This document shows, piece after piece, positions 6,598 to 29,871 of a stretch of 64,000 nt of DNA. Below the pieces are notes generated by a model. It worked only from the letters and a program-made list of their open reading frames with translations. It was not told the DNA's origin and did not search any database. Both the position numbers and the translations under genes were made by a program. This DNA comes from Propylenella binzhouense. Lineage in GTDB: Bacteria > Pseudomonadota > Alphaproteobacteria > Rhizobiales > Afifellaceae. Each line of letters starts with the position of its first letter. The first letter of the stretch is position 1. The stretch is taken from the NCBI RefSeq assembly GCF_009866965.1, contig NZ_SPKJ01000010.1:1-64000 (forward strand), given 5' to 3'.

Positions 6598-6604
6598 TCC
6601 CGGG

Positions 6605-10067: not shown

Positions 10068-10095
10068 GATAAAAGGATTGGGAGGCGACAGCTCG

Positions 10096-10938: not shown

Positions 10939-11708
10939 TGGAACAGGACCGCTCGCGCCAGGTGGCGCTCATGAAGCTCGTCCTGCTCGTGGTCGTAATC
11001 GGCGGCTGGGAGCTCGGCGCGCGGACGGGCGTGATCCCCACCTTCTGGACCAGCAGCCCGTCGCTGCTCGCGATCAACTTCTGGGAATCCCTGAAGGCGA
11101 ACGAGATCACCTACCATACCTGGGTGACGATGCAGGAGGCGCTCGCCGGCCTCGCCGCGGGTGCCGCGGTCGGGATCCTGCTCGGGCTCGTGCTCGGCGT
11201 CAGCCGCGTCTTCGGTCCGGCGCTCGAGCCGTTCGTGATCGCGCTGAACAGCCTGCCGCGCGTGGCGCTCGCGCCCCTCATCGTGATGTTCGTCGGCATC
11301 GGCTTCGCGTCGAAGTTCCTGCTCGCCTTCTCGCTGGTGGTCGTGCCGATCATGCTGAACACCTACGAGGGCATCAAATCGGTCGACCCGCAGCTCGTGA
11401 ACATGATGCGGATCATCCATGCGCGCCGCGATCAGGTCTTCTTCAAGGTGCTGCTGCCGAATTGCGTGCCGTGGATCTTCTCCGCGCTCAGGGTCGCGAT
11501 CTCGTTCGCGATCATCGGCGCGATCGTGGGCGAGTTCATCTCGGCGCGCGCCGGCATAGGCTACATGATCGACACCGCCTCGGGCGGCTTCGATACGACG
11601 GGGATGATCATGCCGCTCTTCGTGCTGATGATCCTCGCCTTCGCGCTCGACCGGCTGTTCGTGGCGGCGTCGGACAGGCTGCTGATCTGGCGCGAGGACG
11701 CGCGGTAG
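10938..11708 (+). CDS. ABC transporter permease (TauC/SsuC type)
   Basis: 256 residues, starting with the ATG that overlaps the ATPase stop (TGATG). Six hydrophobic segments are apparent, and the EAA loop contacting the ATPase lies around residues 150-185 (ALNSLPRVALAPLI precedes it). The binding-protein-dependent transport inner-membrane component fold is clear. A much longer reading in the same frame runs antisense-like through the ATPase gene and is not real. Forms one importer with the genes on either side. Confidence 0.93.
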   Translation: MEQDRSRQVALMKLVLLVVVIGGWELGARTGVIPTFWTSSPSLLAINFWESLKANEITYHTWVTMQEALAGLAAGAAVGILLGLVLGVSRVFGPALEPFVIALNSLPRVALAPLIVMFVGIGFASKFLLAFSLVVVPIMLNTYEGIKSVDPQLVNMMRIIHARRDQVFFKVLLPNCVPWIFSALRVAISFAIIGAIVGEFISARAGIGYMIDTASGGFDTTGMIMPLFVLMILAFALDRLFVAASDRLLIWREDAR

Positions 11709-11753
11709 GAACCCCGCGGCCTGGAACAAGCAATTAATCGCAGGGAGGTTGAC

Positions 11754-12800
11754 ATGGGATTTGCAACTGTGACGAGACGGAGCGCGCTCGTCGCGGCGGC
11801 CGTTACGCTCGGTCTCGCCGCGCTCGGAGGACCCTCCGGCGCGCATGCGCAGGACACGACGAAGCTCAGCGTCGGGATCTCGGTGAAGTCGATCTTCGGG
11901 CTGCCGATCGTGGTCGCCCGCGACAAGGGCTTCTTCAAGGAGGAGGGCCTCGAGGTGACCATCGAGTATTTCGCCGGCGGCCCGCCGGCCACCGCGGCGC
12001 TGATGGGCGGCTCGCTGCAGTTTCTGAACGCGGCGTTCGAGAACAACGTGAAGACGGCCAAGCTCGGCCAGCCGATCGTCACGATCATGAACATCCAGTC
12101 GAACTATGCCGGCGCGATCATCATGCGCAAGGACGTGGCGGAGAAGCTCGGCCACAAGCCGGAGGTCGCGGACCTCAAGGGCATGCGGATCGGCACGCTC
12201 GCGCGCGGCGGGTTCACCGACGTTTCGACCCGCTACATCCTGAACGCGGCCGGCCTCGATCCCGACAAGGACGCCGAGCTCATCCCGATTCGCGGCGCCG
12301 ACCGCCAGATCGCGGCCGGGCAGGCGGGCCAGATCGAGGCGGCCATGGTGACCGAGCCCTGGGGCCCGATCGCGGTCGAGGGCATGGATGCGTGGCGCTA
12401 CGTCGTGAACACGACGGTCGGCGAGGGGCCCGAGCTCTTCCAGGACATGGGCTACGTCACGCTCCAGACCACGAAGGACTATATCGCGCAGAACCGCGCG
12501 GTGGCCGAGAAGGTGGTGCGGGCGGTCGTCAAGGCGCAGAACTACATCGCCGACCCGGCGAACGTCGATGACCTTACGGCCATCGCCAAGAAGGAATATG
12601 GGGATGTCGGCGGCGACGCGATGCGGATCTCCGTCGAGCGTCAGGCCAAGACCTACGTGCCGTTCATGAAGGAGAGCATGGTCAAGAAGACGATGGATCT
12701 GCTCGTCCCGAACGGCCTGATCCAGGAACCGGCGCCGGCCTATGCCGAGGTGGTGGACCAGTCCTTCGCCCCGCTGTGGCAGGCCTACGGCGCCAAATAG
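11754..12800 (+). CDS. ABC transporter substrate-binding protein (NMT1/TauA type)
   Basis: 348 residues with an N-terminal export signal carrying a twin Arg (TRRSAL at residues 7-12), a hydrophobic stretch and a cleavage site after AHA near residue 32, so export by Tat is possible. The mature part has the NMT1/THI5 fold with the early motif FGLPIVVARDKGFFKEEGL. It delivers substrate to the permease/ATPase encoded just upstream. An AGGGAGG ribosome site precedes the ATG. Only 24 bases separate it from the following TctC gene, so the two unlike binding proteins are probably co-transcribed, which is unusual. Confidence 0.92.
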   Translation: MGFATVTRRSALVAAAVTLGLAALGGPSGAHAQDTTKLSVGISVKSIFGLPIVVARDKGFFKEEGLEVTIEYFAGGPPATAALMGGSLQFLNAAFENNVKTAKLGQPIVTIMNIQSNYAGAIIMRKDVAEKLGHKPEVADLKGMRIGTLARGGFTDVSTRYILNAAGLDPDKDAELIPIRGADRQIAAGQAGQIEAAMVTEPWGPIAVEGMDAWRYVVNTTVGEGPELFQDMGYVTLQTTKDYIAQNRAVAEKVVRAVVKAQNYIADPANVDDLTAIAKKEYGDVGGDAMRISVERQAKTYVPFMKESMVKKTMDLLVPNGLIQEPAPAYAEVVDQSFAPLWQAYGAK

Positions 12801-12824: not shown

Positions 12825-13811
12825 ATGATTGAACTTCTTTCGCGCCGCGTGCGCCTGGCCGCCAGGGCTGGCTTCGTAGCCTCCATGGCCCTGGCGTTCG
12901 CCGGTCCGGCGCTTGCCGAATATCCGGACAAGCCGATCAAGCTGATCGTCCCGTTCGCGCAGGGCGGGGCGACCGACCAGGTCGGCCGCATGATCGCGCA
13001 GCCGCTCGAGGAGGTGCTCGGCACCTCGGTCGCCGTCGTGAACCAGGCCGGTGCGGGCGGCGCGGTCGGGCTCGCCAACCTGTCGCGTGCGCGGCCGGAC
13101 GGCTACACGCTCGGCATCGGCTCCGATTCGAGCCTCGCCGCGCGTCCGCTGATGACGGAGAGCGGCTATACCAGCGAGAGCTTCGCGCCGATCGCGCGCC
13201 TGGTCGAGGCGCCGACCGGCTTCGCGGTCGCGTCCAACAGCAAGTACCAGGACCTGAAGAGCCTCGTCGAGGCGATGAAGTCCGGGCAGAAGGTCACCTG
13301 GTCGAGCCCGGGCGTCGGCTCGGGGCCCCATCTGGCGGCCGAGACCTTCTTCGAGAAGTTCGGCGTTCAGGCCACGCACATCAACGCGCAGAGCGGCAAG
13401 GAAGCCCTCGTGAAGCTTCTCTCCGGCGAGGTCGACTTCGTGTCGGCGGCCGGGTCGAACTTTCCGGCCATGGTGTCGGAGAACGAGGGCGCGATCAAGG
13501 TGCTCGGCCTTGCCGGCGAGAAGCGCTGGCCGCGCATGCCCGACATCCCGACCTTCAAGGAGGAGGGCTTCGACTTCATCCGCTCGCAATGGTTCGGGCT
13601 CGTGGCGCCCGCCGGCACGCCGGAGGATGTCGTGAACAAGCTCGCCACCGAGGTCGAGAAGATCATGAACAACCCGGAGAGCGACAAGCTCCTCGCCAAC
13701 TTCCACTTCAGCAGCGCCTATCAGGGCCCGGAGAAGTTCGCCGAGCAGATCCAGATCGAAAGCAAGGAGCTCGCGCCGGTCCTGCAGCGGATCGGGATGG
13801 CGAAGAAGTAG
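12825..13811 (+). CDS. Tripartite tricarboxylate transporter binding protein (TctC/Bug family), module 1
   Basis: 328 residues with a Sec signal peptide ending at ALA near residue 31. The mature protein opens with the hallmark YPDKPIKLIVPF and the ligand loop GGATD, followed by GAGGAVG, both typical of Bug-type receptors that bind a carboxylate group through main-chain and water contacts. It should feed the TctB/TctA permease encoded 75 bases downstream. In proteobacteria, related receptors serve terephthalate, isophthalate and other dicarboxylates, which fits the UbiD neighbour. A hairpin after the gene may lower expression of the membrane subunits relative to the receptor. Confidence 0.93.
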   Translation: MIELLSRRVRLAARAGFVASMALAFAGPALAEYPDKPIKLIVPFAQGGATDQVGRMIAQPLEEVLGTSVAVVNQAGAGGAVGLANLSRARPDGYTLGIGSDSSLAARPLMTESGYTSESFAPIARLVEAPTGFAVASNSKYQDLKSLVEAMKSGQKVTWSSPGVGSGPHLAAETFFEKFGVQATHINAQSGKEALVKLLSGEVDFVSAAGSNFPAMVSENEGAIKVLGLAGEKRWPRMPDIPTFKEEGFDFIRSQWFGLVAPAGTPEDVVNKLATEVEKIMNNPESDKLLANFHFSSAYQGPEKFAEQIQIESKELAPVLQRIGMAKK

Positions 13812-13831
13812 CAGTTCTCGCACCATCGGAA

Positions 13832-13856
13832 GTCGCCGCCTCCGGGCGGCGGCTTT
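13832..13856 (+). terminator. Hairpin between tctC and tctB (partial terminator)
   Basis: A 9-bp stem (13832-13840 with 13845-13853, one G-T pair) and a four-base loop is followed by TTTCC. It lies 20 bases past the tctC stop and 30 bases before tctB, a place where a leaky terminator would give more binding protein than permease. Confidence 0.5.
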
Positions 13857-13886
13857 CCATTGAGGATCGGCAGGCTATTAGACTAG

Positions 13887-14333
13887 ATGAGCAAAGTCTT
13901 TCATCATCCTGATTCCGTTGCGGGTCTGGTATTGATAGTGGTGGGCGGAATCGCCACCTATCTCTCCTACCAGATCGCGCCCGGCCCGGACGTCCTGACG
14001 CTGCCGCCGAATTTCTTTCCGCTGCTCTGCACCATCGGCGTCGTCCTCATCGGGATCGCCATGATGGTCCAGGCGGCGTGGGCGGCGCCCGTCCCCTTTC
14101 CAGCGCTCGTCGATGCGCGCGCGGTCGCCGTCTTCGCGCTGATGCTCGTCTACTTCCTGACCTTCGAGAGCGTCGACTTCCGGCTCGGTTCGTGGGTCTT
14201 CATGCTCGCCACCATGCTGGCGATGGGGTGCCGCAGCATTCCGCAGCTCGTGATCCTGCCGCTCGCCTTCGTCGCCGCGGTCTACGTCGTCTTCAGTTCC
14301 ATCTTCAGCATCCTGCTACCCACATGGATCTGA
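13887..14333 (+). CDS. TTT small membrane subunit (TctB, DUF1468)
   Basis: 148 residues with four hydrophobic segments, the length and topology of TctB. The small subunit assembles with TctA in the inner membrane. Spacing between tctC and this gene contains a hairpin; its 3' end overlaps the tctA start by 10 bases, so the two membrane subunits are coupled. Sequence is poorly conserved in this family, so the call rests on length, topology and position between tctC and tctA. Confidence 0.85.
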   Translation: MSKVFHHPDSVAGLVLIVVGGIATYLSYQIAPGPDVLTLPPNFFPLLCTIGVVLIGIAMMVQAAWAAPVPFPALVDARAVAVFALMLVYFLTFESVDFRLGSWVFMLATMLAMGCRSIPQLVILPLAFVAAVYVVFSSIFSILLPTWI

Positions 14334-15865
14334 TCTCCGCACAGGATTTCGCGGCGGGTCTCTCGATCCTCCTCGATCCCTACGTCCACGTCTTCCTGAT
14401 CGTGGGCGCCTTCGTCGGCATGGTCTTCGGCGCCGCGCCGGGCCTGACGGCTCCGGCCGCGGTCGCCCTCATGCTGCCGCTCACCTACGGACTCGGGCTC
14501 AATGCCTCGCTCGCGCTCCTGCTGGGGATCTATTGCAGCGGCTATTTCGCCGGCTCGATCCCGGCGATCCTGATCAACACCCCCGGCACGCCGGGCAATG
14601 CCGCGACGGCGCTCGACGGCTACCAGATGGCGAAGCTCGGGGAGGGCGACCGGGCGATCACGACGGCGATCATCGCCTCCTTCCTCGGCGGCCTCGTCTC
14701 GATGCTGCTTCTCTCCGGGGTCGCGCCGGTGCTCGCCCAGGTGGCGCTGAGCTTCACCTCGGTCGAATATTTCTCGCTCGCCCTGCTCGGCATCGTCTGC
14801 GTCGCCGGCATCTCGACGGGTTCCCTGCTCAAGGGCTGCGCGGGCGCGCTGATCGGGATCTTCATCTCCACCGTCGGGCTCGATCCGACCAGCGGCGTGC
14901 CGCGCTTCACCTTCGGAATCCCGGATCTTCTCGCCGGCATCCCGCTCATTCCGGCGCTGATCGGACTCTTCGCGATCTCCGAGATGCTGATGAAGTCCTT
15001 CCGCTCGAACGTGGCGCAGGAATTCCTGACGAGCGAGCGCAGGGCTTCGGTCGGCAACGTCGTCCGCGACTTCGCGCGGAACAAGTGGCTCGCGCTGAAA
15101 TCCGCCTTGATGGGCACCTTCATCGGGCTCCTGCCCGGGACCGGCCCCGCCATCGCCTCCTGGGTCGCTTACGGCGAGGCGCTCCGCACGAAGCGGGAGG
15201 GCGACAAGTTCGGCCATGGCGAAGTGAAGGGCGTGATCGCCTGCGAGGTCTCCAACAATGCGGTGACCGGCGGCGCGATGATCCCGCTGCTGACGCTCGG
15301 CATTCCCGGAGATCCGGTGACGGCCATCCTGATCGGCGCGCTGATGATCCAGGGCATCGAGCCCGGGCCGTTCTTCATTCGCGACCACGGCTCCGTGTTC
15401 ATCTCGATCCTGATCCTGCTGTTCGTCTCCAATATCTGGATGGTGGTGCTCGGCCTGATGGCGCGCAGAGGTGCCGCCCAGGTCGTCCGCGTGCCGGCGC
15501 ACATCCTGGTGCCGACGATCTCGGTGCTTGCGGCGGCCGGCGGCTTCGCCATCAACAGCAGCAGCTTCGATGTCATGCTGACCGTGCTCTTCGGCGGCGT
15601 CGGCTTCCTGATGGTGCGCTACCACTTCCCGGTCGCGACCGTGGTGCTCGGCCTGGTGCTCGGGCCGATCCTGGAGAGCAATCTCCGCAATGCGCTGGTC
15701 CGCAGCGATATGGACCCGACGGTCTTCTTCACCCGGCCGATCAGCGCCGCGATCCTCCTTGCGATCGTGGTGCTCCTGTTCGTCTGGGGACGCGAGGACA
15801 GGCGTCAGCGGCGGCTCGTTTCCGCCGAACTCGGTGAAGATGTGGCGGAGGCCCGGGAATCATGA
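14324..15865 (+). CDS. TTT large membrane subunit (TctA), module 1
   Basis: 513 residues, normal TctA length, with about 12 hydrophobic segments. The two pseudo-symmetric TctA motifs are present: GAAPGLTAPA near residue 37 with INTPGTPGNAATALDG after it, and LPGTGPAIASWVAYG near residue 270 with ITLGIPGD-like sequence (TLGIPGDPVTA) near residue 325. The ATG at 14,324 lies within the tctB 3' end. Its stop overlaps the start of the cyclodeaminase-like gene (ATGA), tying transport and metabolism into one transcript. Confidence 0.94.
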   Translation: MDLISAQDFAAGLSILLDPYVHVFLIVGAFVGMVFGAAPGLTAPAAVALMLPLTYGLGLNASLALLLGIYCSGYFAGSIPAILINTPGTPGNAATALDGYQMAKLGEGDRAITTAIIASFLGGLVSMLLLSGVAPVLAQVALSFTSVEYFSLALLGIVCVAGISTGSLLKGCAGALIGIFISTVGLDPTSGVPRFTFGIPDLLAGIPLIPALIGLFAISEMLMKSFRSNVAQEFLTSERRASVGNVVRDFARNKWLALKSALMGTFIGLLPGTGPAIASWVAYGEALRTKREGDKFGHGEVKGVIACEVSNNAVTGGAMIPLLTLGIPGDPVTAILIGALMIQGIEPGPFFIRDHGSVFISILILLFVSNIWMVVLGLMARRGAAQVVRVPAHILVPTISVLAAAGGFAINSSSFDVMLTVLFGGVGFLMVRYHFPVATVVLGLVLGPILESNLRNALVRSDMDPTVFFTRPISAAILLAIVVLLFVWGREDRRQRRLVSAELGEDVAEARES

Positions 15866-16926
15866 GTGAAGTTCTTCTTCTGCGGCCGAACGAGCTTCTG
15901 GGTCTCGTTAGCATGGCCGAGGCGATCGATGCGGTCGCCGCCGCCTATGCCGGCGGCTCGGAATATCCGGTCATCAACGCGCCGCGCCGGCGCGTGCACT
16001 CCCCCGAGGGCGTCCGGGTCAGCAATTTCCCCGGCGGCGTCCACGCGCTCGGCGTGATCGGCTCGCAGACCCGGGCGGAGCTCGTCGGGCACGCCGACGC
16101 CCATCAGCAATATCTCCGGCGGGAACCGCCGGTCTTCGTGCTGAACGATTCGAACACCGGCGAGCTGCTTGCGATCCTCGTCGGCGAGATACCGGAGAAG
16201 GAGCTCGGTCCGTCCAGCCTGATGGCAATGCGGACCGGCGCCACGAGCGGGGTCGGATTTCGCCACCTCGTGCGCGAGGATGCGAAGCTCGCCGGGCTGT
16301 TCGGCTCCGGCGGGCAGGCCTCCCATCAGCTGCAGGCGCTCCTCACCGAGCGGCCCGGCATCGAGCGCGTGCGGGTCTTCGGGCGCGATCAGGCCAACCG
16401 GGAGCGCTTCGCGGAGGAGTACGGCGCGCGCTTCGGCGTCGCGATCGAACCCGTCGCATCGGCGGAGGCGGTCATCGACGGCGCCGACGTGGTCGTCTGC
16501 GCGACCAACACCTCGACCGTGCTCTTCGATGGCGATCTGCTGCAGCCGGGCCAGCACATCACCGGCATCATCGGCTCGAACATGCAGCTCGTCGAGGGCG
16601 GGTTCCTGAAGACGGTGCGGCGCGAGCTCGACGACCGCACCGCCGAGAAGGCCGACCTGATCGTCGCCAATCTCCGCGACAGCGTGATGGCGGAGAAGCA
16701 GGGCGACCTCTACCAGCCGATCGAGAAGGGTCTCATCCGCTTCGAGGATATCGTCGATCTCGGCGAGGTCGCGCTCGGCCGGCATCCCGGCCGCACGGCA
16801 CCCGACCAGCTCACCTATCACAAGAACAACAATGGCACCGGCGCGGCGGATCTCGCGATCGCGATGCTCGCGTTCCGCAAGGCGCGCGAGCTCGGCCGCG
16901 GCATGCCGCTTGCCCTCGCGGCCTGA
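15862..16926 (+). CDS. Ornithine cyclodeaminase / mu-crystallin family protein, module 1
   Basis: 354 residues. The NAD(P)-binding Rossmann segment carries LFGSGGQASHQ near residue 147, preceded by the substrate-region motif MRTGATSGVG near residue 123. Family members are ornithine or other amino-acid cyclodeaminases, ketimine reductases, alanine dehydrogenases or opine-type dehydrogenases, so the exact reaction is not known. It overlaps tctA (ATGA) and is followed by a UbiD decarboxylase gene 36 bases on. The same three-part company (TTT, this family, UbiD) occurs again at 18.6-24.6 kb, which argues for a linked, non-ornithine function in the same pathway. Confidence 0.85.
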   Translation: MSEVLLLRPNELLGLVSMAEAIDAVAAAYAGGSEYPVINAPRRRVHSPEGVRVSNFPGGVHALGVIGSQTRAELVGHADAHQQYLRREPPVFVLNDSNTGELLAILVGEIPEKELGPSSLMAMRTGATSGVGFRHLVREDAKLAGLFGSGGQASHQLQALLTERPGIERVRVFGRDQANRERFAEEYGARFGVAIEPVASAEAVIDGADVVVCATNTSTVLFDGDLLQPGQHITGIIGSNMQLVEGGFLKTVRRELDDRTAEKADLIVANLRDSVMAEKQGDLYQPIEKGLIRFEDIVDLGEVALGRHPGRTAPDQLTYHKNNNGTGAADLAIAMLAFRKARELGRGMPLALAA

Positions 16927-16962
16927 GCCGCTGCCAGCCGAACTCACAGGAGAAAGTCGCGT

Positions 16963-18492
16963 ATGAGCGTTGCACGTAAGCCGGTCGCCTTCGGAGACCA
17001 GCGCGGTTGGATCGATGCGCTCCGGGAGGCCGGCGAGCTCAGGGAGATCGGGGCGGAGGTCGACTGGAACTGCGAGCTCGGCACGATCGTGCGGCTCGCC
17101 CAGGGGCCGGGCGACGGGCCGGCGATGCTCTTCAACAACATCAAGGACTACAACGGTCCGGAAAGCCGCTGCGGCCAGCTCTTTGCAAACGGACTCGGCT
17201 CCTACAGCCGGCTTGCGATGATGCTGGGCATGCCGCGGGAGACCTCCGCGCGCGAGCTCGTGCGGGTCGCCCGCACCATCATGCAGGAGCGCATAAAGCC
17301 GGTCACCGTCGCGACCGGGCCCGTCAAGGACGTCATCCTCAAGGGCGACGACATCGACCTCTTCGACTTCCCGAGCCCGCATTGGAACAGGGTCGACGGC
17401 GGCCGCTACATCATCACCTATGCCGGCTGCGTCACCCGTCACCCGGTCACCGGCGTCATGAATGTCGGCATCTATCGCGGCATGCTCGCAAGCAGGACCG
17501 AAATCCCGATGCTGATCTGGCGCGCGCAGCACATCGGAAACCACTTCACCGCCTACGAGCAGGCCGGGCTGAAGGAGATGCCGATCGCCTTCGTCATGGG
17601 CTGGGAGCCGGCCATGGGCTTCTGCGCCGGCCAGCCGGTGCCGCCGGGCGTCTGCGAATATGACGTGATGGGCGGCATACGCGGCGAGCCGGTGGAGCTC
17701 GTGAAGTGCGAGACGGTCGACCTCGAGGTGCCGGCGAGCGCGGAGATCGTGATCGAGGGCGTGATCAGCACGGATCCGAAGGATTTCGTGATGGAGGGTC
17801 CGTTCGCCGAGTTCACGGGCTATGTGGCGGGCGACCGTTCGCCGAAGCCGACCTGCCGCGTCACCTGCATCACCCACCGCAACAAGCCGGTCATGTCGGG
17901 CGCGATCGAGGGTTCGCTCCCCGGCAGCTATTCCGAGAACGCGGTCTGCAGCTCCATCATGCGGGCGGGCACCGCCTGGAACGTGCTCGACAATGCCGGC
18001 GTGCCGGGGGTGACCGACGTGTTCTGCCCGCCGGTCCAGGTGGGCATCAACCTGCTCGTCTCCATCAAGCAGACCTATCGCAACCAGGCGAAGCAGGTGG
18101 CGAACGCGATCTGGGGCTCGTCGGCAGCCCATGTGCGCTACAAGCACATCACGGTCGTCGACGACGACATCGACATCCACGATTATGCCGCCGTCGACTG
18201 GGCGATCGCCTACCGGGTGAACGCCGGCGAGGACGACGTGATCATCATGCCGTCGACCTTCGGGGCGGGGCTCGACCCTTCCACGCGGCGGCGCGACCGC
18301 AACGCCGCCCTTTTCGGGACCGGCAAGTGGAATCGCGTGCTGATCGACGCGACCATCAACCTCGACTACGACCCGGACCCGGACCTCGGTGGCGCACGGT
18401 TTCCCCCGACCGTCTGGCCGTCCGAGGAGGACGAGGCGAAGGCGCGGGCGCGCTGGGAGGAGCTCGGGCTCGCCGCAGCGAAGCGGGGCTGA
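16963..18492 (+). CDS. UbiD-family (de)carboxylase, module 1
   Basis: 509 residues. Prenyl-FMN/metal site residues are all visible by motif: Asn and Arg in NVGIYR (about residues 168-173 by family numbering), His in AQHIGNHF, Glu in VCEYDVMG, and the catalytic box EGPFAEFTGY with both Glu kept. It resembles the UbiD at 25,597 more than the other two (both share WRAQ, VKCET, VPASAEIVIEG). It ends the operon tctC-tctB-tctA-cyclodeaminase-ubiD and is followed by a strong terminator. The imported acid is therefore the likely substrate; whether it is decarboxylated free or as a CoA ester is not decided. Confidence 0.94.
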   Translation: MSVARKPVAFGDQRGWIDALREAGELREIGAEVDWNCELGTIVRLAQGPGDGPAMLFNNIKDYNGPESRCGQLFANGLGSYSRLAMMLGMPRETSARELVRVARTIMQERIKPVTVATGPVKDVILKGDDIDLFDFPSPHWNRVDGGRYIITYAGCVTRHPVTGVMNVGIYRGMLASRTEIPMLIWRAQHIGNHFTAYEQAGLKEMPIAFVMGWEPAMGFCAGQPVPPGVCEYDVMGGIRGEPVELVKCETVDLEVPASAEIVIEGVISTDPKDFVMEGPFAEFTGYVAGDRSPKPTCRVTCITHRNKPVMSGAIEGSLPGSYSENAVCSSIMRAGTAWNVLDNAGVPGVTDVFCPPVQVGINLLVSIKQTYRNQAKQVANAIWGSSAAHVRYKHITVVDDDIDIHDYAAVDWAIAYRVNAGEDDVIIMPSTFGAGLDPSTRRRDRNAALFGTGKWNRVLIDATINLDYDPDPDLGGARFPPTVWPSEEDEAKARARWEELGLAAAKRG

Positions 18493-18535
18493 GCTCCCGG
18501 TCAGCCTTTCTCCGGAATCGATCCCGGATCGGGAA

Positions 18536-18565
18536 GGGCCGGCGGTTCGCGCCGGCCCTTTTCTT
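18536..18565 (+). terminator. Rho-independent terminator after the module 1 operon
   Basis: A perfect 9-bp GC stem (18536-18544 with 18550-18558) with the loop GTTCG is followed by TTTTC. It lies 44 bases after the plus-strand UbiD stop and before the convergent TctA-TctB gene, so it closes the module 1 transcript. Confidence 0.85.
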
Positions 18566-18592
18566 TGGGTGTCCCCTTTTCTCTGGGTGTCC

Positions 18593-20593
18593 TCAGAGGC
18601 CGAACAGGCCTTTCGGCCAGGGCACGTGGAGGACCCGGATGAAAAGGAGATAGGAGAGCCCCCACGTCGCCGCGGCCGTGGCGAGGGAGGGCAGCCACTT
18701 CATGCGGAACTCCACGATCATGCAGGCGAGCATCCAGACGAACAGCGCAGGGAGCGGCCCGATCAGAGCGGCGATCACGAGATAGAGCCCGAGCCAGGCG
18801 AAATACACCAGCGACCGCCTGACGATGACCGGCAGGGTCAGGTCCTCGTGGCTGATCCCGAGATCCATGTCGGCGCCCACCGGCTCCGGCTCGGCCGACT
18901 TCACCTCGACGAAGAGGCGGGTCGCAAGATAGCCGGCGAGGAACAGGATGCCTGCGAAGGAGACGATCTCCGGGATGATCCGCGCGCCGAACGGCCACCG
19001 CCACATGTCGGCGAGGGCGACCACCAGGAGGGCGAGCGCGGCTCCGGCGAAGAGGGTGTCCCAGCCGAGGCGCCCGGGCAGGAAGCCGAAGGCGAGCTTG
19101 CGGGGCGGGCGCCCGCGGCGGCGGAGGAAGATGCCGGCGACGGGCGCGAGCAGGCCCCAGGCGGTGACCACCAGCGTGGCGATAACGAGCGGTCTCGCGA
19201 ACAGTCCGAGCCCGTAGATCTGGATGGAGGTGAAGAGATAGCGCTCGATCAGCGTCCCCAGCACGAAGCCGAGGAGAAGCGGCGGCCGCGGCCATTGCAG
19301 CGAGCGCATCAGGTAGCCGACCGCGCCGGCGCCGAAAAGGACGAAGATGTCGCCCCAGTCGTTGGAGCCCTGGAACGCGCCGACGAAGGTGATCGCGAGG
19401 ATCACCGGCGCCAGATAGCCGATCGGGATGAGCGCGATCTTCGCCATCCGGTGGGCGAACGCGAAGCAGATGGCGGCGCCCATCAGGTTCGCGACCGCAA
19501 GGCTCCAGATCATCGTGTAGGTGACGTCGAGATGCTTGCCGAGCATGTCCGGACCCGGGACGATGCCCTGCATCAGGAAGGCGCCGAGCAGGATCGCCAT
19601 GCCGGCGGAGCCGGGCACGCCGAAGGCGAGTGTGGGCACCAGCGCGCCGCCCTCCTTGGCGTTGTTGGCCGCCTCGCTCGCGATGACGCCGCGGACGTCG
19701 CCCTTGCCGAACGTGTCGGACGCGCCTTTCACCGATTTCGCCGCGGAGCCGTAGGCGATCCAGTCGATCACGGCGGATCCGAGGCCCGGAACGGCGCCCA
19801 TGATGGACCCGATGGTCGAGCTCCGCATCACCGTGCCGAGATTGCGCAGGACGTCCTTGATCCCGTCCCACTGGCCGCGCGTGGACATCGGCTCCTTGCC
19901 GGCGATGGCGGTGCGCCGGACCACGAGGTCGGCGATCTCCGGTATGGCGAAGAGCCCGAGCGCGAAGGGGACGATCGGGATGCCTTCCCAGAGATAGATC
20001 GAGCCGAAGGTCCAGCGGAGCGTGCCGGACTGGTAGTCCTCGCCGACCATGGAGAGGAGCAGGCCGAAACAGGCGACCGCGAGGCCGCGCAGCATGTAGC
20101 GGCCGCTGAGCGCGGCGGCGAGGGAAAGGCCGAAGACGCAGAACGCGAGCATTTCCGGCGCGCCCACGAAGAGGAGGGCGGGGCGGATCACGGGGAGCGT
20201 CGCCGCGAGGAGCAGGGCGCCGAAGAGGCCGCCGACGAGCGAGGCCGCGAACGAGGCGCCGAGCGCCCGCCCGGCCTCGCCGCGCTTCGCCATCGGGAAG
20301 CCGTCGAGCACCGTCGCCGCCGAGCCGACCGAGCCGGGCACACCGAAGAGCACGGCCGGGATCGCGTCGGAGGTTGCGACCACGGCATGCATGCCGATCA
20401 GCATGGCGAGCGCGGTGTAGGGGTCCATGTGATAGGTGAAGGGAAGGAGCAGCGTGAGGCCGACCAGCCCCCCGAGCCCCGGGACGATGCCGAGGACGAG
20501 CCCGCCGAGCACGCCGGCCGTCAGCATCACGAGCCTGAGGGGATCGGCGATGTTCCCCAGCGCGGCCCAGGCGGCCGTAAGCATGCCCGACAT
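18593..20593 (-). CDS. TctA-TctB fusion protein (TTT permease), module 2
   Basis: 666 residues from the ATG at 20,593 with a GGAGGAA ribosome site; upstream frame extension belongs to shadow sequence of the UbiD gene. Residues 1 to about 500 are TctA (VPGLGGLVGLTLLLP, VLFGVPGSVGSAATVLDGFP, VPGLGSAVIDWIAYG, FGVPGSAGMA). The last 150 residues add four further hydrophobic segments after an Arg-rich linker (RRRGRPPRK), with the size and topology of TctB. No separate tctB gene is near. The protein probably works with the TctC-type receptor at 22,451, encoded divergently beyond the UbiD gene. Confidence 0.88.
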   Translation of the reverse strand: MSGMLTAAWAALGNIADPLRLVMLTAGVLGGLVLGIVPGLGGLVGLTLLLPFTYHMDPYTALAMLIGMHAVVATSDAIPAVLFGVPGSVGSAATVLDGFPMAKRGEAGRALGASFAASLVGGLFGALLLAATLPVIRPALLFVGAPEMLAFCVFGLSLAAALSGRYMLRGLAVACFGLLLSMVGEDYQSGTLRWTFGSIYLWEGIPIVPFALGLFAIPEIADLVVRRTAIAGKEPMSTRGQWDGIKDVLRNLGTVMRSSTIGSIMGAVPGLGSAVIDWIAYGSAAKSVKGASDTFGKGDVRGVIASEAANNAKEGGALVPTLAFGVPGSAGMAILLGAFLMQGIVPGPDMLGKHLDVTYTMIWSLAVANLMGAAICFAFAHRMAKIALIPIGYLAPVILAITFVGAFQGSNDWGDIFVLFGAGAVGYLMRSLQWPRPPLLLGFVLGTLIERYLFTSIQIYGLGLFARPLVIATLVVTAWGLLAPVAGIFLRRRGRPPRKLAFGFLPGRLGWDTLFAGAALALLVVALADMWRWPFGARIIPEIVSFAGILFLAGYLATRLFVEVKSAEPEPVGADMDLGISHEDLTLPVIVRRSLVYFAWLGLYLVIAALIGPLPALFVWMLACMIVEFRMKWLPSLATAAATWGLSYLLFIRVLHVPWPKGLFGL

Positions 20594-20644
20594 CCGTGTT
20601 CCTCCGATCGCGCTCCTTCTCGGGGAGCATCCACAGCGTTGCGA

Positions 20645-20676
20645 AACGAAAGGCGCCCCCGGTTGGCCGGGGGCGC
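20645..20676 (-). terminator. Terminator-like hairpin between UbiD and TctA-TctB (minus strand)
   Basis: A perfect 10-bp GC stem (20653-20662 with 20667-20676) and a four-base loop is followed, reading the minus strand, by CTTTCGTTTCG. It sits directly after the stop of the UbiD gene and 60 bases before the TctA-TctB start, so it can attenuate transcription into the permease gene. Confidence 0.7.
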
Positions 20677-20682
20677 GCTCCG

Positions 20683-22326
20683 CTAATCCTTCACGCGACG
20701 CACTTCCGTGTTCATCGGCACGTCGCTCCGCCTCTGCTGGGCGATGATGTCGCCCGTGGTCCAGTAGTCGCTCGCCACCGCCCGTTCGGCCATCTGCTCG
20801 AGATTGGCGTCCCATTCGCCGAGCGAATAGCCGTACCACGGCGTCTGCGGCTTGAGCTCCGGAAGGCCGAGTTCCTCCCAGATGTGCCGCGCGTTCTCCA
20901 TGTACTCCTGCTTGGGCAGCGAGATCGGGGGGAACGGCTCCTTGAGCGTCGCGTCGAAGAGGACGGAGGCGTCCTCGCCGCCGTTCCGCTCGCTGCGGGG
21001 CCCGTGGCCCTGGTCCCGGTGCTTCATCACCTCCATGTCGAGCGCGGGATTGCAGCGGTAGGAGAGCGCCCAGAGGATCGAATCGGCATTGTCGACGTCG
21101 ATGTCGTCGTCGACCGCGATGACGTACTTGCCGATCGCCCGGTGCTGGCTCGCCAGTCCGTAGAGCGCCCGCCAGATCTCCACGCGCGGGGTGCCCTTCT
21201 CGACATGGATGAGGACGACCTTGCGGATATTGGTGAGCGGTTCGTGCAGGCTCACCTTCTTGACGCAGCGAAGCCCCAGTCCCTCGCGCAGATGGTCGAG
21301 CAGGAGCGGCTCCATCGCGACCCGCTTGATGAGGCTCGATTCGCTCGGCGTGACCTGGCTGATGATCGAGGTCAGGATCGCATCGCGCCGGCGCGTGATC
21401 GCCGTCACGTCCATGAAGGCGTTGAATTCCTGCAGGTTGACGTGGCCGTGGCTCTCGCCGAAGGGCGCTTCCGGCTCCAGGCAGTCGGTGTGGATGTAGC
21501 CCTCGATGACGATCTCCGCCTCGGCGGGGACGAGCAGATCGACCGTCTTCGCCTTCACCACGTTGAGCGGCGAACCGGCGAGCGCGCCCGCCACGTGGAA
21601 TTCGTCGAGCCTCTCGGGGAGCTTCATGGTCGAGGTGAAGGTGACGACCGGCGGTGCGCCGAGCACGACCGCCGCCGGCATCGGCTCGCCGCGCTCCTTG
21701 TACTTCAGCCAGTGCGTGTAGATGCCGGGCCTCAGCTCGAGCGAGGGATTCATGCCCATCCGCCGGCGCGACTTTATCTGCCCGCGATAGTTGCCCATGT
21801 TCTGGACCCCGGTGTCGGGGTCCTTGGTGATGTACTGGGAGAGCGTTGTGTAGGGCGCGTTGTCCCAGCCCGGCGTCGAGATCGGAACCGGGATGCCGTC
21901 GAGCGCGGCGCCGGGGCGGTCGAGGTCGTCGCCGACCGTCACGATCTCGTGGCAAGGGGCGTTCTCCACGACCCTCGGCGGGATGGGGTTGGCCGCAGCC
22001 CGGCTCCAGGTCGCGGCGATCTCGTTCAGTTCGCAGCCGAGCCCGATCCGGTAGATCTCGCGGCTGGCGGCGAGGGCGCCGACGACGACGGGAATGTCGT
22101 ACTTCTTTCCCTTGCTGTCGACGACGTTGGTGAACAGGAACGCCTTGCGCTGCGCCTCGCTGAAGCCGCCGCGGAACTGCCAGCGGACCAGCGGGTGCAT
22201 CTCGGTGTCCTTGTTGATCGGCCGGTCGACTCTGATGAGCAGCCCGGCCTCCTCGAGGGCCTTCAGATGCCGATGGAGATCCGGGTAGGCCGCGCCGGCC
22301 TCCCCAGTTGCCGCCTCTTTGAGCAT
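20683..22326 (-). CDS. UbiD-family (de)carboxylase, module 2
   Basis: 547 residues from the ATG at 22,326, which has GGAAGGGAG in front; an earlier in-frame Met adds 27 unlikely residues rich in Lys/Asp/Gln. Motifs: Asn and Arg in NMGNYRG, His in YTHWLKY, Glu in LDEFHVAG, and the catalytic box EAPFGESHGH with both Glu present but Ala for Gly and SHGH for the usual TGYY. It belongs to a different UbiD subgroup from the genes at 16,963 and 25,597. Divergent from the TctC gene at 22,451 with a shared upstream element between them. Confidence 0.93.
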   Translation of the reverse strand: MLKEAATGEAGAAYPDLHRHLKALEEAGLLIRVDRPINKDTEMHPLVRWQFRGGFSEAQRKAFLFTNVVDSKGKKYDIPVVVGALAASREIYRIGLGCELNEIAATWSRAAANPIPPRVVENAPCHEIVTVGDDLDRPGAALDGIPVPISTPGWDNAPYTTLSQYITKDPDTGVQNMGNYRGQIKSRRRMGMNPSLELRPGIYTHWLKYKERGEPMPAAVVLGAPPVVTFTSTMKLPERLDEFHVAGALAGSPLNVVKAKTVDLLVPAEAEIVIEGYIHTDCLEPEAPFGESHGHVNLQEFNAFMDVTAITRRRDAILTSIISQVTPSESSLIKRVAMEPLLLDHLREGLGLRCVKKVSLHEPLTNIRKVVLIHVEKGTPRVEIWRALYGLASQHRAIGKYVIAVDDDIDVDNADSILWALSYRCNPALDMEVMKHRDQGHGPRSERNGGEDASVLFDATLKEPFPPISLPKQEYMENARHIWEELGLPELKPQTPWYGYSLGEWDANLEQMAERAVASDYWTTGDIIAQQRRSDVPMNTEVRRVKD

Positions 22327-22364
22327 GGGGCTCCCTTCCTGCTTGTCCTGCTTGTCGTGAGGGC

Positions 22365-22386
22365 TCGATTTGGTAATATCGTATCC
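22365..22386 (+). promoter_or_regulatory. Shared upstream element C in the UbiD/tctC divergent region
   Basis: TCGATTTGGTAATATCGTAT lies in the middle of the 124-bp divergent gap. It matches the element upstream of the acyl-CoA ligase (29701-29730, minus strand) at nearly every position over 22 bases (CYCGAT, TTGGYA, TATCGTAT) and shares TCGA, TTTGGTA and GTAT with elements A and B. It is placed to act on both divergent genes. Regulator unknown. Confidence 0.55.
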
Positions 22387-22450
22387 ATATGTGCCATTGC
22401 TGTTCAACAGCCCTTGAGGGCCAGCGGCACTTTCATCGGGAGGAATTCGG

Positions 22451-23473
22451 ATGCGATCCTGGCTAAAATGGGCCGCCGCGGCGGCGACCTCGCTTGCGCT
22501 CCTGGGCGGGCCGGCGGCCGCGCAGGACAGCTTTTATGCCGGCAAGACGATCACCCTCATCGTGCCTGCGAGCGCCGGCGGCTCGTACGGAATCTATGCC
22601 CAGCTCGTCGCGGACGCGCTCACGAAGCACATTCCGGGCAATCCGCAGGTTCTGCCGCAATATGTCGGCGGGGCCGGCGGCATGCGCGCCTCCAACCAGG
22701 TGGCCAATACCGCCGAGACGGACGGCACGGTCATCTACCTGATGCATCAGAACGCGCCGAGCCAGCAGCTGCTCTCGCCCGATCAGGTGAGCTACGACGC
22801 CGGCAAGTTCATCCCGATCGGCGTCATTTCGGCGCTGAACAGCGCGATGGCGATCCGCAACGACGCGCCGGCCACGGACCTGGCGGGCTTCAAGCAGAAG
22901 GAGGTGCTGATCGGCACCACCGGCCGCGGCTCGTACCAGTACGTGATCCCGACGCTGCTGAACAGCTTCCAGGACACCAAGTTCAAGGTGATCACGACCT
23001 ATCCCGGCACCGGCGAGACGATGCTCGCCGTCGACCGCGGCGAGGTGCACGGCATGCTGTCGAGCCTGCTCACCTTCCAGGAGAGCCGGCCGGACTGGGT
23101 GACGGGCAAGGGCGACGCCAAGCTCGTCTTCCAGATCGGCGAGACCCGTGATCCCGCGATCCCGGATGTCCCGCTTCTGCGGGAACTCGCCGCTTCGGAC
23201 GAGGAGAAGCAGCTCTACCGCTTCATGTCGGCCGCCAACAGCATCGGCCGCGGCCTCGTGTTCCCCGCCGGCGTGCCGGAGGATCGCGTCGCGATGGTGC
23301 GCACGGCGCTCCAGGAGGTGCTGAAGGATCCGGACTTCCAGGCGCTGGCGAAGAAGCGCGGGATCCCGCTTTCGTCCGCCTCGGCGGAGGAGATGAAGAC
23401 GATCATCGACGGCATTCTCGCGACGCCGAAGGAGGTCGTCGAGAAGGCCCGCCAGTACATGACCGAGGGCTAG
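22451..23473 (+). CDS. TctC/Bug-family binding protein, module 2
   Basis: 340 residues with a Sec signal (cleavage after AAA near residue 24). The mature start FYAGKTITLIVPASAGGSYGIYA has the Bug core but the ligand loop reads SAGGSYG in place of the common GGATD, which suggests a ligand unlike that of module 1. A later motif IGTTGRGSYQY replaces the usual domain-closing loop. This subgroup is often annotated as a TTT receptor. It stands alone, with a strong terminator after it, then the second cyclodeaminase-like gene. Confidence 0.88.
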   Translation: MRSWLKWAAAAATSLALLGGPAAAQDSFYAGKTITLIVPASAGGSYGIYAQLVADALTKHIPGNPQVLPQYVGGAGGMRASNQVANTAETDGTVIYLMHQNAPSQQLLSPDQVSYDAGKFIPIGVISALNSAMAIRNDAPATDLAGFKQKEVLIGTTGRGSYQYVIPTLLNSFQDTKFKVITTYPGTGETMLAVDRGEVHGMLSSLLTFQESRPDWVTGKGDAKLVFQIGETRDPAIPDVPLLRELAASDEEKQLYRFMSAANSIGRGLVFPAGVPEDRVAMVRTALQEVLKDPDFQALAKKRGIPLSSASAEEMKTIIDGILATPKEVVEKARQYMTEG

Positions 23474-23497
23474 GGCCCGATCTGCGACGCGGCGCGG

Positions 23498-23530
23498 AGG
23501 CGGAGCGGCAAGCTCCGCCTTCTTCTTTCC
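23498..23530 (+). terminator. Rho-independent terminator after module 2 tctC
   Basis: A perfect 9-bp stem (23498-23506 with 23512-23520), five-base loop GGCAA and a T-rich tail TCTTCTTTCC. It lies between tctC and the cyclodeaminase-like gene, mirroring the hairpin after tctC in module 1. Confidence 0.8.
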
Positions 23531-23558
23531 TGACGGCAGATCGGATCGGACCGGAGCG

Positions 23559-24629
23559 ATGACCCTTCTCATCAACAACGACGTGACCGCGCGTGTCCTC
23601 GACATGGGCGAGGCGGTCGCGGCTATGGAGAACGCGCTTCTCCAGCACGCGCGGGGACAGGCGACCTTCCAGCCGCGGGTGGACCTCTGGTCGCCGACCG
23701 CGAAGGACGGCGACTATTATCGCTGGGGGCACCTTCTGGGCGCGATGGCGGATCCGCCGACGCTTGCCCTCCGCTTCAAGTCGGACATCCTCAAATGGAC
23801 CGACTATAGCGGCGTGAAGACCGAGGAATGGTTCTGCATGGAGCCGGGCCGGTACTGCGGCTTCATCATCCTCATCGATACCTCCAACGGGGAGATCATC
23901 GGCCTTCTGAACGACGGCGTCCTCCAGCACGTCCGGGTCGGCGCGACGGCGGGCGTCGGCGCGAAATACCTGGCGCGGAAGGACGCCTGCGTGCTCGGCG
24001 TGCTCGGGTCCGGCGGCATGGCCCGCACCTATACGGAGGCGCTCGCCGTCGCCCGCGAGCTTCAGGAGGTCCGCGTCTACAGCCCGACGCCGAAGAACCG
24101 CGAGGCCTTCGCGGAGGAGATGGGCGAGAAGCTCGGGATCCGCGTGGTGCCATGCGACAGCGCCGCGTCGGCGCTCAAGGACGTCGACATGGTGGCGACC
24201 TGCACGGATTCCCGCGTGCCGGTCTACACGGCCGACATGCTGAAGCTCCACCGGCCCGGCGTGTTCCTGGTGCGCTGCCGCTACGACGAGATGGACGACG
24301 CCACCTTCGAGGCCGTCGACAAGGTGTTCGTCAACGCCACCGGCGCCTATACCGACCTCGTCATCGGCACGGAGGAGGAGCGCGCCCGGCGGCCGACTGA
24401 CAGCGCCTATCGCCGCCGGTACAAGACGACCTCCTACGGCATGCTCGCCGACGTGATCGCCGGGAAGATCGAGGGCCGGACCTCGGACGGGGAGACCATC
24501 TTCTATCACAACACCTCGGCCGGCCTGCAGTTCGCGGCCATCGGGCGGCTCGTCTACGAGCGGGCGAGGGCGGCCCGTCTGGGCATGCCGATCCCGATCG
24601 ACTGGTTCACCCAGGACATCCGGAACTGA
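23559..24629 (+). CDS. Ornithine cyclodeaminase / mu-crystallin family protein, module 2
   Basis: 356 residues. The Rossmann motif VLGSGGMARTY is near residue 148, preceded by HVRVGATAGVG near residue 127. It is a distant paralogue of the protein at 15,862 and shares the overall family fold only; the N-terminal substrate domain differs strongly (it contains WTDYSGVKTEEWFC). Enzyme activity cannot be assigned. It is separated from tctC by a terminator and from the convergent methyltransferase by 37 bases. Its repeated pairing with TTT and UbiD genes is the main clue to function. Confidence 0.82.
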   Translation: MTLLINNDVTARVLDMGEAVAAMENALLQHARGQATFQPRVDLWSPTAKDGDYYRWGHLLGAMADPPTLALRFKSDILKWTDYSGVKTEEWFCMEPGRYCGFIILIDTSNGEIIGLLNDGVLQHVRVGATAGVGAKYLARKDACVLGVLGSGGMARTYTEALAVARELQEVRVYSPTPKNREAFAEEMGEKLGIRVVPCDSAASALKDVDMVATCTDSRVPVYTADMLKLHRPGVFLVRCRYDEMDDATFEAVDKVFVNATGAYTDLVIGTEEERARRPTDSAYRRRYKTTSYGMLADVIAGKIEGRTSDGETIFYHNTSAGLQFAAIGRLVYERARAARLGMPIPIDWFTQDIRN

Positions 24630-25263: not shown

Positions 25264-25596
25264 TGCGGCTTTCCTTCCCACTCCCGGCGCGTTCCGAGGC
25301 TATTCTGCATCCCAAGCCGGAAATCAAGCGGCCGCCGAAAAGCTGCCGCGGAGGCGGCCGCAACCGGCTCAAAGTCCCGCAAAATCGAGGTTCGATCGCC
25401 GTAGACAGAAATCGAGCTTTTGGTATAGGTATGCAAGAATGTGGGCGGCGACGGTCTGGCGCGGTCTGCATCCGTCAACAAGGCCGCAGTTCACCACCCG
25501 AGAATCCAGAGAAGGGACCGGTCGAATGACCGGCTGCGGCACTGGCCGCGGTGGAAGGACGGCCGGCCCGGGAAGGACGTACCAGTGAGAGGAGCC
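25264..25596. other. 333-bp gene-free upstream region
   Basis: Lies between the minus-strand methyltransferase and the plus-strand UbiD gene. It holds a perfect 9-bp inverted repeat (25328-25336 with 25353-25361) and promoter/operator element B (25402-25434). The frame of the UbiD gene stays open back to 25,441, but that stretch is Arg/Pro/His-rich with no ribosome site and is taken as untranslated leader of about 160 bases. Confidence 0.6.
25402..25434 (+). promoter_or_regulatory. Promoter/operator element B of the UbiD gene at 25,597
   Basis: The core TTTTGGTATAGGTATGC (25418-25434) matches element A at 10,051 at 15 of 17 positions, and the flanking TAGACA, GAA and TCGA are shared as well with one base of length difference. 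TAGACA and TATAGG, 16 bases apart, could be the -35 and -10, giving transcription from about 25,436 and a leader of about 160 bases. Confidence 0.55.
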
Positions 25597-27132
25597 ATGA
25601 ACGCGAATCCGGAAATTTCGAATCGCCTGAAGCCCCGGAGCTTCGGCGACCTGCGCGGCTGGATCGAGGCGCTCCGCCAGGAGGGCGAACTGCACGAGAT
25701 CGATGCCCAGGTCGACTGGGACGGCGAGATCGGCGCGATCGCCCGCCGCGTCTTCGGTCAGGGCAAGGGCCCGGCGCTCCTCTTCAAGAACATCAAGGGC
25801 TACGGACCGGGGGATGACGTCTGGTCGAACCAGCTCTTCACCGGCGGCCTGTCCAACTATTCGCGCATCGCGATGATGCTGGGGCTGCCGAAGGACGCGC
25901 CGGTCACCGACCTCGTGCTCGCCACCCAGCACTATTTCGCCCAGCGCGTGAAGCCGGAGACGGTGCAGACCGGCCCGGTGAAGGAGCTCATCTTCAAGGG
26001 CGACGACATCAACCTCTACAAGCTCCCCGTGCCGCGCTGGCATGGGCTCGACGGCGGCCGGTACATCAACACCTACCAGGGCACCGTCACGATCGACCCG
26101 GATACCGGACAGCACAATATCGGCATCTATCGCGGCATGATCGGCCAGCGCGACACGCTGCCGGTCCTGCTCTGGCGGGCCCAGAACTGGGGCGTGCATT
26201 TCCAGAAATGGGCCGACCGCGGCATGAAGATGCCGGTGGCGCATGTCTATGGCTGGGAGCCCTGCCTGCCCTATTGCGCATCCGCGCCGATCCCGACCGG
26301 CGTGTCGGAATACGAGGTGATGGGCGCGATCCGCGGCGCGCCGGTGCCGCTCGTGAAGTGCGAGACGAGCGACATCATGGTGCCGGCGAGCGCCGAGATC
26401 GTCATCGAGGGCTTCATCGATCCGGATCCGTCGACCTTCGAGATGGAAGGGCCGTTCGGCGAGTACACCGGCTATTTCGGTGGCGACCAGGGGCCGAAGC
26501 ACGTGACGAAGGTGACCTGCGTCACCATGCGGCGTAACCCCATCTATCGCGGCACGCTCGAGGGCACGCTGCCGAAGCGGCTCAACGAGAACTCCATGAC
26601 GAGCTCGGTGCAGCGCGCCGGCGTCGCCTGGAACGTGCTGAAGGCCGCGGGCGTGCCCGGCGTCACCGACGTGCACTGCCCGGCCGCCAACAACGGCACG
26701 ACCCTCGTCATCCAGCTTCGCCAGACCTATCGCGGCCAGGCCAAGCAGGCGGCGGCGGCGATCTGGGGATCGAACGCGGCGCATCTGCGCTACAAGAACA
26801 TCTGGGTGGTCGACGACGACATCGACATCCACGATTACGGTTCGATCGACTGGGCCTTCGCCTACCGGGTGAACGCCGCCGAGGACGACATCGTGTTCTT
26901 CCCGGCCACGTTCGGCTCGCTGCTCGATCCGTCCACCCGCCTCGAATACCGCGATCCGATCAAGTTCGGCACGGGCAAGTGGTGCCGTGTCCTCATCGAC
27001 GCGACCCGCAATCTCGATTTCGAGCCGCAGAAGCAGTATGGCGGTGATCGCTTCCCGCCCACGGTTGTTCCGCTGCCGGAGCATTCCGATGTCGTGGAGC
27101 GGCGCTGGAAGGATTACGGCTTCGAGGACTGA
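25597..27132 (+). CDS. UbiD-family (de)carboxylase
   Basis: 511 residues from the ATG at 25,597 (ribosome site GAGAGGAG). Close relative of the UbiD at 16,963. Motifs: Asn and Arg in NIGIYRG, Glu in VSEYEVMG, catalytic box EGPFGEYTGY complete. At the position where the 16,963 protein has the His of AQHIGNHF this one reads AQNWGVHF, so a metal-site His appears to be Asn unless the His four residues on takes its place. It has its own promoter element and a terminator, and is followed by a TSUP-type permease gene. Substrate unknown. Confidence 0.93.
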   Translation: MNANPEISNRLKPRSFGDLRGWIEALRQEGELHEIDAQVDWDGEIGAIARRVFGQGKGPALLFKNIKGYGPGDDVWSNQLFTGGLSNYSRIAMMLGLPKDAPVTDLVLATQHYFAQRVKPETVQTGPVKELIFKGDDINLYKLPVPRWHGLDGGRYINTYQGTVTIDPDTGQHNIGIYRGMIGQRDTLPVLLWRAQNWGVHFQKWADRGMKMPVAHVYGWEPCLPYCASAPIPTGVSEYEVMGAIRGAPVPLVKCETSDIMVPASAEIVIEGFIDPDPSTFEMEGPFGEYTGYFGGDQGPKHVTKVTCVTMRRNPIYRGTLEGTLPKRLNENSMTSSVQRAGVAWNVLKAAGVPGVTDVHCPAANNGTTLVIQLRQTYRGQAKQAAAAIWGSNAAHLRYKNIWVVDDDIDIHDYGSIDWAFAYRVNAAEDDIVFFPATFGSLLDPSTRLEYRDPIKFGTGKWCRVLIDATRNLDFEPQKQYGGDRFPPTVVPLPEHSDVVERRWKDYGFED

Positions 27133-29594: not shown

Positions 29595-29700
29595 CTGGTG
29601 CTCCCGCCCTTTCGCTCGTATCGTTCTGCGGTCGGCCGGAGGGAGCGTCTGCCGCGTTGGTGAGCGCGCGCAACCGCTTCACTCCTGACCCGCCCAAGAA

Positions 29701-29730
29701 GCATACAAATACGATAATGCCAATATCGGG
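29701..29730 (-). promoter_or_regulatory. Shared upstream element D of the acyl-CoA ligase
   Basis: Read on the minus strand it contains CGATATTGGCATTATCGTAT, then TTGTATGC. It is almost the same as element C (22365-22386) and ends with the GTATGC seen in A and B. It lies 107 bases upstream of the ligase start. Confidence 0.5.
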
Positions 29731-29784
29731 GCCCCGCCCGGCCGCGGCGAGCCAGGGTCGCCGGCGCGGCCGAGGCAGCAAATC

Positions 29785-29806
29785 GGCATTTTGGTACTTG
29801 ACAGCT
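29785..29806 (+). promoter_or_regulatory. Shared upstream element E of the TRAP operon
   Basis: GGCATTTTGGTACTTGACAGC contains TTTTGGTA (29789-29796), as in element B, and an overlapping TTGACA that could be a -35. It lies about 185 bases before the TRAP permease start. It is the weakest of the five copies because the GTATGC half is missing. Confidence 0.4.
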
Positions 29807-29871
29807 TGAATTCGGGATGGTCCAGTTCGGCACGAGTAGCCGCAAAGAGCTGCAGCGCGGGAGGAGGCCGG

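Follow-up and report, generated by a model that had tools for sequence, protein, structure and literature searches.

The subject of this study is a 64,000-nucleotide stretch of the Propylenella binzhouense genome (contig NZ_SPKJ01000010.1, positions 1 to 64,000; hereafter the window), in which two adjacent gene modules, at 12825-18492 and 18593-24629, each combine a tripartite tricarboxylate transporter (TTT), a UbiD-family enzyme and a protein of the ornithine cyclodeaminase (OCD) type. We show that UbiD with TTT is a conserved unit. The region as a whole probably represents a catabolic island for aromatic or heteroaromatic acids, built of interchangeable units, in which the two OCD-like proteins are separate accessories and not a conserved third part of the UbiD-TTT pair. 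The parts are known; their arrangement is new.

Module 1 consists of the following features:

12825..13811, plus strand: tctC1, TTT (Bug) solute-binding protein (PF03401, 183.5 bits); its nearest solved relatives are Bug proteins and a terephthalate-binding protein
13835-13853: hairpin between tctC1 and tctB1
13887..14333, plus strand: tctB1, small TTT membrane subunit (PF07331, 44.8 bits)
14324..15865, plus strand: tctA1, large TTT membrane subunit (PF01970, 465.8 bits); the start, ATG at 14324, was assigned from reading of the sequence
15862..16926, plus strand: OCD1, cyclodeaminase/ketimine-reductase-like protein (PF02423, 121 bits; model matches 6t3e)
16963..18492, plus strand: UbiD_A, member of the prenylated-FMN (prFMN)-dependent (de)carboxylase family (PF01977, 208 bits; motifs NVGIYR and EGPFAE)

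Module 2 consists of:

18593..20593, minus strand: TctAB2, a TctA-TctB fusion (PF01970, 420 bits, plus a weak PF07331 match); start taken from the reading MSGML
20653..20676, minus strand: terminator-like hairpin between UbiD_B and the fusion (10 GC pairs and a T-rich tail)
20683..22407, minus strand: UbiD_B (PF01977, 187 bits; likely start ATG at 22326; motifs NMGNYR and EAPFGE)
22451..23473, plus strand: tctC2, TTT (Bug) solute-binding protein (PF03401, 37.7 bits, cut-off 27)
23496..23522, plus strand: terminator-like hairpin between tctC2 and OCD2 (11 pairs, dG -24.6 kcal/mol, T-rich tail)
23559..24629, plus strand: OCD2, cyclodeaminase/ketimine-reductase-like protein (PF02423, 132 bits; model matches 6t3e)

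A preliminary description of this DNA had reported that a set of TTT, cyclodeaminase-like protein and UbiD occurs twice side by side. Each of the parts it named was recovered by Pfam in its place, and the gene calls agree that module 1 runs in one direction and that module 2 is rearranged over both strands. By Pfam, the TTT of module 1 is complete (TctC, TctB and TctA), and the TctB part of the module 2 fusion falls slightly below the PF07331 cut-off (28.2 versus 29.1 bits).

That UbiD and TTT form a conserved unit follows from their proximity in this genome and from their recurrence on plasmids of other bacteria. The genome contains 10 UbiD, 4 OCD, 31 TctA and 33 TctC matches, and seven of the ten UbiDs have a TctA within 10 kb, as compared with 1.16 expected; since four of these seven are located in the window itself, this amounts to four out of seven separate places. 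On plasmids of the Rhizobiaceae Neorhizobium and Sinorhizobium, relatives of UbiD_B (51-52% identity) are found together with UbiX (71-73% identical to the UbiX of the window) and with TctC2-like and TctAB2-like genes, in clusters that include a thiamine-diphosphate enzyme. These clusters differ from our region in that Mo-hydroxylase genes adjoin them and no OCD is present within the 21 kb examined. TctAB2 relatives of 45-52% identity adjoin UbiD_B relatives, and relatives of TctC2 occur both beside an OCD2 orthologue (44% identity, locus L112) and beside UbiD_B relatives (32-34%). Such a unit fits the import of phthalate-type acids by TTT, through which terephthalate and isophthalate are taken up (PMC13040137). 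The TTT repertoire of this genome is itself large; the eleven further genomes for which TctA was counted have 2-12 each.

Matching parts of the two modules share little sequence: identity is 30% between UbiD_A and UbiD_B, 26% between OCD1 and OCD2, 25% between TctC1 and TctC2, and 35% between TctA1 and TctAB2. With values of 25-35%, the modules were assembled separately, and the earlier suggestion of functional recurrence, as opposed to recent duplication, is upheld. Had one TTT-OCD-UbiD set been duplicated recently in tandem, this would explain why the same gene families lie next to each other, yet such an event is extremely improbable, because fusion state and gene order differ as well; for the complete trio, the low identity rules it out. 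UbiD_A and UbiD_C, a third UbiD that is 57% identical to UbiD_A, could alone be an older duplicate pair. The closest relatives of TctC1 (59%) and TctA1 (68%) adjoin a UbiD_B-like gene at another locus of this genome (L064), which is a further sign that TTT and UbiD parts mix and match.

In contrast to the UbiD-TTT pair, the OCD-like proteins proved to be loose partners. Orthologues of OCD1 (57-69% identity, 20 loci, another order) had neither UbiD nor TTT in the flanks examined (0/20), and instead occupy a conserved block of Gld-type ABC transporter, OCD, TauE and isochorismatase-like genes. Similarly, none of the eight loci with OCD2 orthologues (60-75% identity) included a UbiD; the transporter found there was TctC at two, a branched-chain ABC system at three and TRAP at one. 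Flanks were shorter than 5 kb, some loci ending at contig ends, in 8 of the 20 OCD1 and 3 of the 8 OCD2 cases, and when only the longer flanks were considered, UbiD was still beside none of 12 OCD1 and none of 5 OCD2 orthologues. A fixed TTT-OCD-UbiD trio is therefore ruled out at the orthologue level, as none of the 20 OCD1 and none of the 8 OCD2 loci had both partners. The linked three-part system envisaged by the preliminary description thus did not hold by the test which that description had itself set: OCD2 orthologues accompany TTT without UbiD at two loci and UbiD at none, and OCD1 orthologues accompany neither. What stood of its interpretation is the recurrence, the association of UbiD with TTT and, in other OCD subgroups, an association of OCD-like genes with UbiD.

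The layout of the modules bears on expression of their parts. Module 1, with tctC1, tctB1, tctA1, OCD1 and UbiD_A all on the plus strand, very probably is a single operon, because OCD1 overlaps tctA1 by 4 bp, the gap between OCD1 and UbiD_A is 36 bp, and AGGAG lies 5' of the UbiD_A start. From this layout, co-expression of TTT, OCD1 and UbiD_A is very likely. Given its two hairpins, co-expression in module 2 is less certain. The number of terminator-like sites in the region does not exceed that in shuffled sequences, so these two hairpins stand out by intergenic position and strength only, and attenuation at them is only suggested. A promoter scan of the region found none.

Could the two OCD-like genes have come to lie beside UbiD and TTT by chance? 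Two of the four OCDs in this genome are within 10 kb of both a UbiD and a TctA (P = 0.0015 versus random placement), a value that rises to 0.048 when the whole island is treated as one occurrence. Three fully listed genomes of one genus (G304, G300 and G210) each have one OCD near both UbiD and TctA (P = 0.14-0.22). A UbiD- and TTT-rich island in a genome with so many TctA genes might have acquired two OCD-like genes by transfer, and the value of 0.048 is compatible with this, as is the wholly different conserved block in which the OCD1 orthologues sit. The distribution of OCD1 points the same way: among 398 genomes sampled from the phylum it was found in its own genome only, with no strong match among the 20 same-order genomes listed, yet its orthologues are common in another order. 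Chance neighbourhood is nevertheless quite improbable, for the overlap between OCD1 and tctA1 is typical of translational coupling, and OCDs were enriched near UbiD in the five genomes considered below. Plasmids yielded one distant match each for OCD1 and OCD2, and the search of genome contigs with OCD2 returned three loci only.

Several observations weigh against our view of the OCDs as separate accessories. OCD1 lies between tctA1 and UbiD_A within one operon. In five genomes, OCD-like genes of other subgroups were near UbiD at 23 of 63 loci versus 9.3 expected, roughly a two-fold enrichment, although the pooled P exaggerates this enrichment, because four of these genomes come from a single family and synteny links many of the loci; taken by itself, the single-contig genome gave 5 of 18 versus 2.5 expected (P = 0.12). 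UbiD and TTT occur within 10 kb of an OCD at about seven places on the OCD tree, and a UbiD is nearby at 22 of 36 OCD2-like loci of 36-46% identity and at 7 of 10 loci of 48-51% identity to OCD1, all in a biased sample, as some regions were chosen after the link had been noticed or because their OCDs lay near TctA or UbiD. In addition, no UbiD_A orthologue was found, the best plasmid homologues being only 34% identical. We regard the association between UbiD and OCD as suggestive but unproven.

Some of these observations could reflect a loose pathway type: an N-heteroaromatic acid (a carboxylate of the pyrrole, pyridine or indole type) would enter by TTT and lose its carboxyl group to UbiD, and an OCD-like enzyme would reduce a cyclic imine arising at a later step. 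Between lineages, the families would persist while subgroups and gene order change. We consider this possible, if rather unlikely. Apart from the seven or so places on the OCD tree, it would account for a cluster, collinear in four genomes of one genus (L172-L175, for example L172:2627-14962), that holds TctC, a TctA-TctB fusion, UbiD, EutA-like, RidA-family, OCD and NMT1-like genes, and for a UbiD followed at 123 bp by an OCD-like gene in a metagenome-assembled genome of Candidatus Binatia (L049:8358-11092). Imines and enamines are handled by RidA. The known substrates of UbiD enzymes include pyrrole-2-carboxylate (PMC7976604) and indole-3-carboxylate (PMC8988006), and quinolinate is bound by Bug27/Bug69 (PMC11452294). 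The pathway is opposed by the single trio in each of the three genomes of one genus, by the orthologues of OCD1 and OCD2, which are never with UbiD, and by the OCD1 clade, which is without a conserved N-terminal lysine. A reading in which UbiD decarboxylases and imine reductases of the OCD type repeatedly join with TTT transporters, and N-containing (hetero)aromatic acids follow a route not yet described (import, decarboxylation by UbiD and reduction by an OCD-like enzyme of the resulting imine, which RidA might handle), is in our judgement unlikely. If true, the loose association of OCD with UbiD would give UbiD pathways a reduction that the literature searched does not describe for them, and an imine reductase beside UbiD would point to nitrogen-containing acids. 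Our search of the literature on UbiD, ornithine cyclodeaminase and TTT found no paper describing the trio, and the papers examined on the indole-carboxylate and pyrrole-carboxylate UbiDs made no mention of genomic context.

Other neighbourhoods of OCD-like genes were observed as well. A grouping of TctA, UbiD and an OCD related to that of L172-L175 is also found at L179, and in the Candidatus Binatia genome Mo-hydroxylase and branched-chain ABC genes adjoin the pair. In one family (L131-L138, L081 and L083), OCD2-like genes, mostly in tandem pairs, lie near a UbiD_B orthologue of 68-70% identity, many of them also beside thiamine-diphosphate-enzyme-like genes. At L078, L079, L140-L144 and L149, an OCD2-like gene lies near a phthaloyl-CoA-decarboxylase-like UbiD (34-36% identical to UbiD_D of the window), several of these loci having a CoA ligase or an NMT1-like binding protein.

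For the island of interchangeable units that we favour, family membership suggests that the TTT transporters would import organic acids, from which the UbiDs would then remove (or to which they would add) a carboxyl group with prFMN. For all four UbiDs of the window, this cofactor could come from the UbiX encoded at 5438-6076. OCD1 and OCD2 would be NAD(P)H-dependent reductases with the fold of Delta1-pyrroline-2-carboxylate reductase, most likely acting on an imine or keto compound formed from an amino or N-heterocyclic acid that has been imported. Their substrates would be their own, often distinct from those of the UbiD-TTT pair.

Indeed, AlphaFold models of OCD1 (pLDDT 84) and OCD2 (pLDDT 87) match Delta1-pyrroline-2-carboxylate reductase (6t3e) and other imine reductases over their full length. 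The top fold matches (TM ~0.75) were Delta1-pyrroline-2-carboxylate/piperideine-2-carboxylate reductases and the alanine dehydrogenase AF1665, from which OCD1 and OCD2 differ in that identity is 27% or less and no NCBIfam equivalog cut-off is reached; for ornithine cyclodeaminase proper, OCD1 scored at best 154 of the 417 bits required, and OCD2 126 of 409. With PF02423 over cut-off and a matching fold, both belong to the ornithine cyclodeaminase/mu-crystallin family. Members of this family have a conserved lysine in the N-terminal substrate domain. In the alignments, Lys74, a candidate for this residue, is invariant among OCD2 orthologues, whereas in the OCD1 clade no column before residue 113 reaches 80% Lys. 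Because of this difference, the usual chemistry may have been lost or changed in OCD1.

The surroundings of the two modules include further UbiDs and transporters:

25441..27132, plus strand: UbiD_C, the third UbiD (PF01977, 215 bits; motifs NIGIYR and EGPFGE), starting 815 bp past OCD2
8240..9835, minus strand: UbiD_D, phthaloyl-CoA decarboxylase homologue (843 bits over 509 amino acids, residues 22-530, to 8pmk and 8oz5)
5438..8170, minus strand: UbiX flavin prenyltransferase (over cut-off), MaoC-like hydratase and acyl-CoA ligase, beside UbiD_D
10078..12800, plus strand: NitT/TauT-type ABC transporter (ATPase, permease and NMT1-like binding protein; permease from open reading frame reading), between UbiD_D and module 1

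UbiD_C and UbiD_D had been missed when the region was described as two copies of one trio; both sets are present, as parts of what is probably one aromatic-acid island with four UbiDs and several transporters. All four match the N- and C-terminal UbiD domains of PF01977 over cut-off. UbiD_A, UbiD_B and UbiD_D are mutually only 26-30% identical. The subgroup of UbiD_A and UbiD_C stands on both sides of module 2. The catalytic arginine and paired glutamate motifs (R...E-x4-E) are kept in UbiD_A, UbiD_B and UbiD_C and are absent from UbiD_D, which is closely similar to solved phthaloyl-CoA decarboxylase throughout its length. Together with UbiX, the MaoC-like hydratase and the acyl-CoA ligase, UbiD_D likely forms a phthalate-type decarboxylation set. 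A benzoate-CoA-ligase-family protein (over cut-off) adjoins a fused TRAP permease at 27948-31935; o-phthalate is imported by TAXI-TRAP systems in denitrifiers (PMC13040137). Also downstream, the window has a protocatechuate-3,4-dioxygenase-like pair, and Mo-hydroxylase subunits are also present. With the UbiD_D set, the benzoate-CoA-ligase-family protein, the TRAP permease and the dioxygenase-like pair, the whole stretch looks like one of aromatic-acid catabolism.

Among known systems, the anaerobic phthalate degradation clusters, which combine a phthaloyl-CoA decarboxylase of the UbiD family with UbiX, CoA activation and a transporter, share with the window a UbiD close to phthaloyl-CoA decarboxylase beside UbiX and a CoA ligase, and UbiD/UbiX genes occur in all known o-phthalate clusters (PMC13040137). 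Modules 1 and 2 depart from them in that their UbiDs belong to other subgroups and are accompanied by TTT transporters and OCD-like genes, and no succinyl-CoA:phthalate CoA-transferase was identified adjoining UbiD_D. The nearest solved structure for UbiD_B is 6h6v/6h6x (148 bits). The structure 6h6v is that of HmfF, the UbiD-family 2,5-furandicarboxylate decarboxylase; it is a distant relative, the transporter here is TTT, and no HmfF cluster containing an OCD was found in the literature searched. UbiDs are numerous and few of their substrates are known, and a transporter fixed beside a UbiD narrows the choice. With UbiD-TTT as the solid unit and OCD as the loose partner, an experimenter knows which pair to test first.

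Towards the end of the window, between 50000 and 64000, third-position GC of the genes falls from ~0.9 to ~0.74, which suggests that this part differs in origin or expression.

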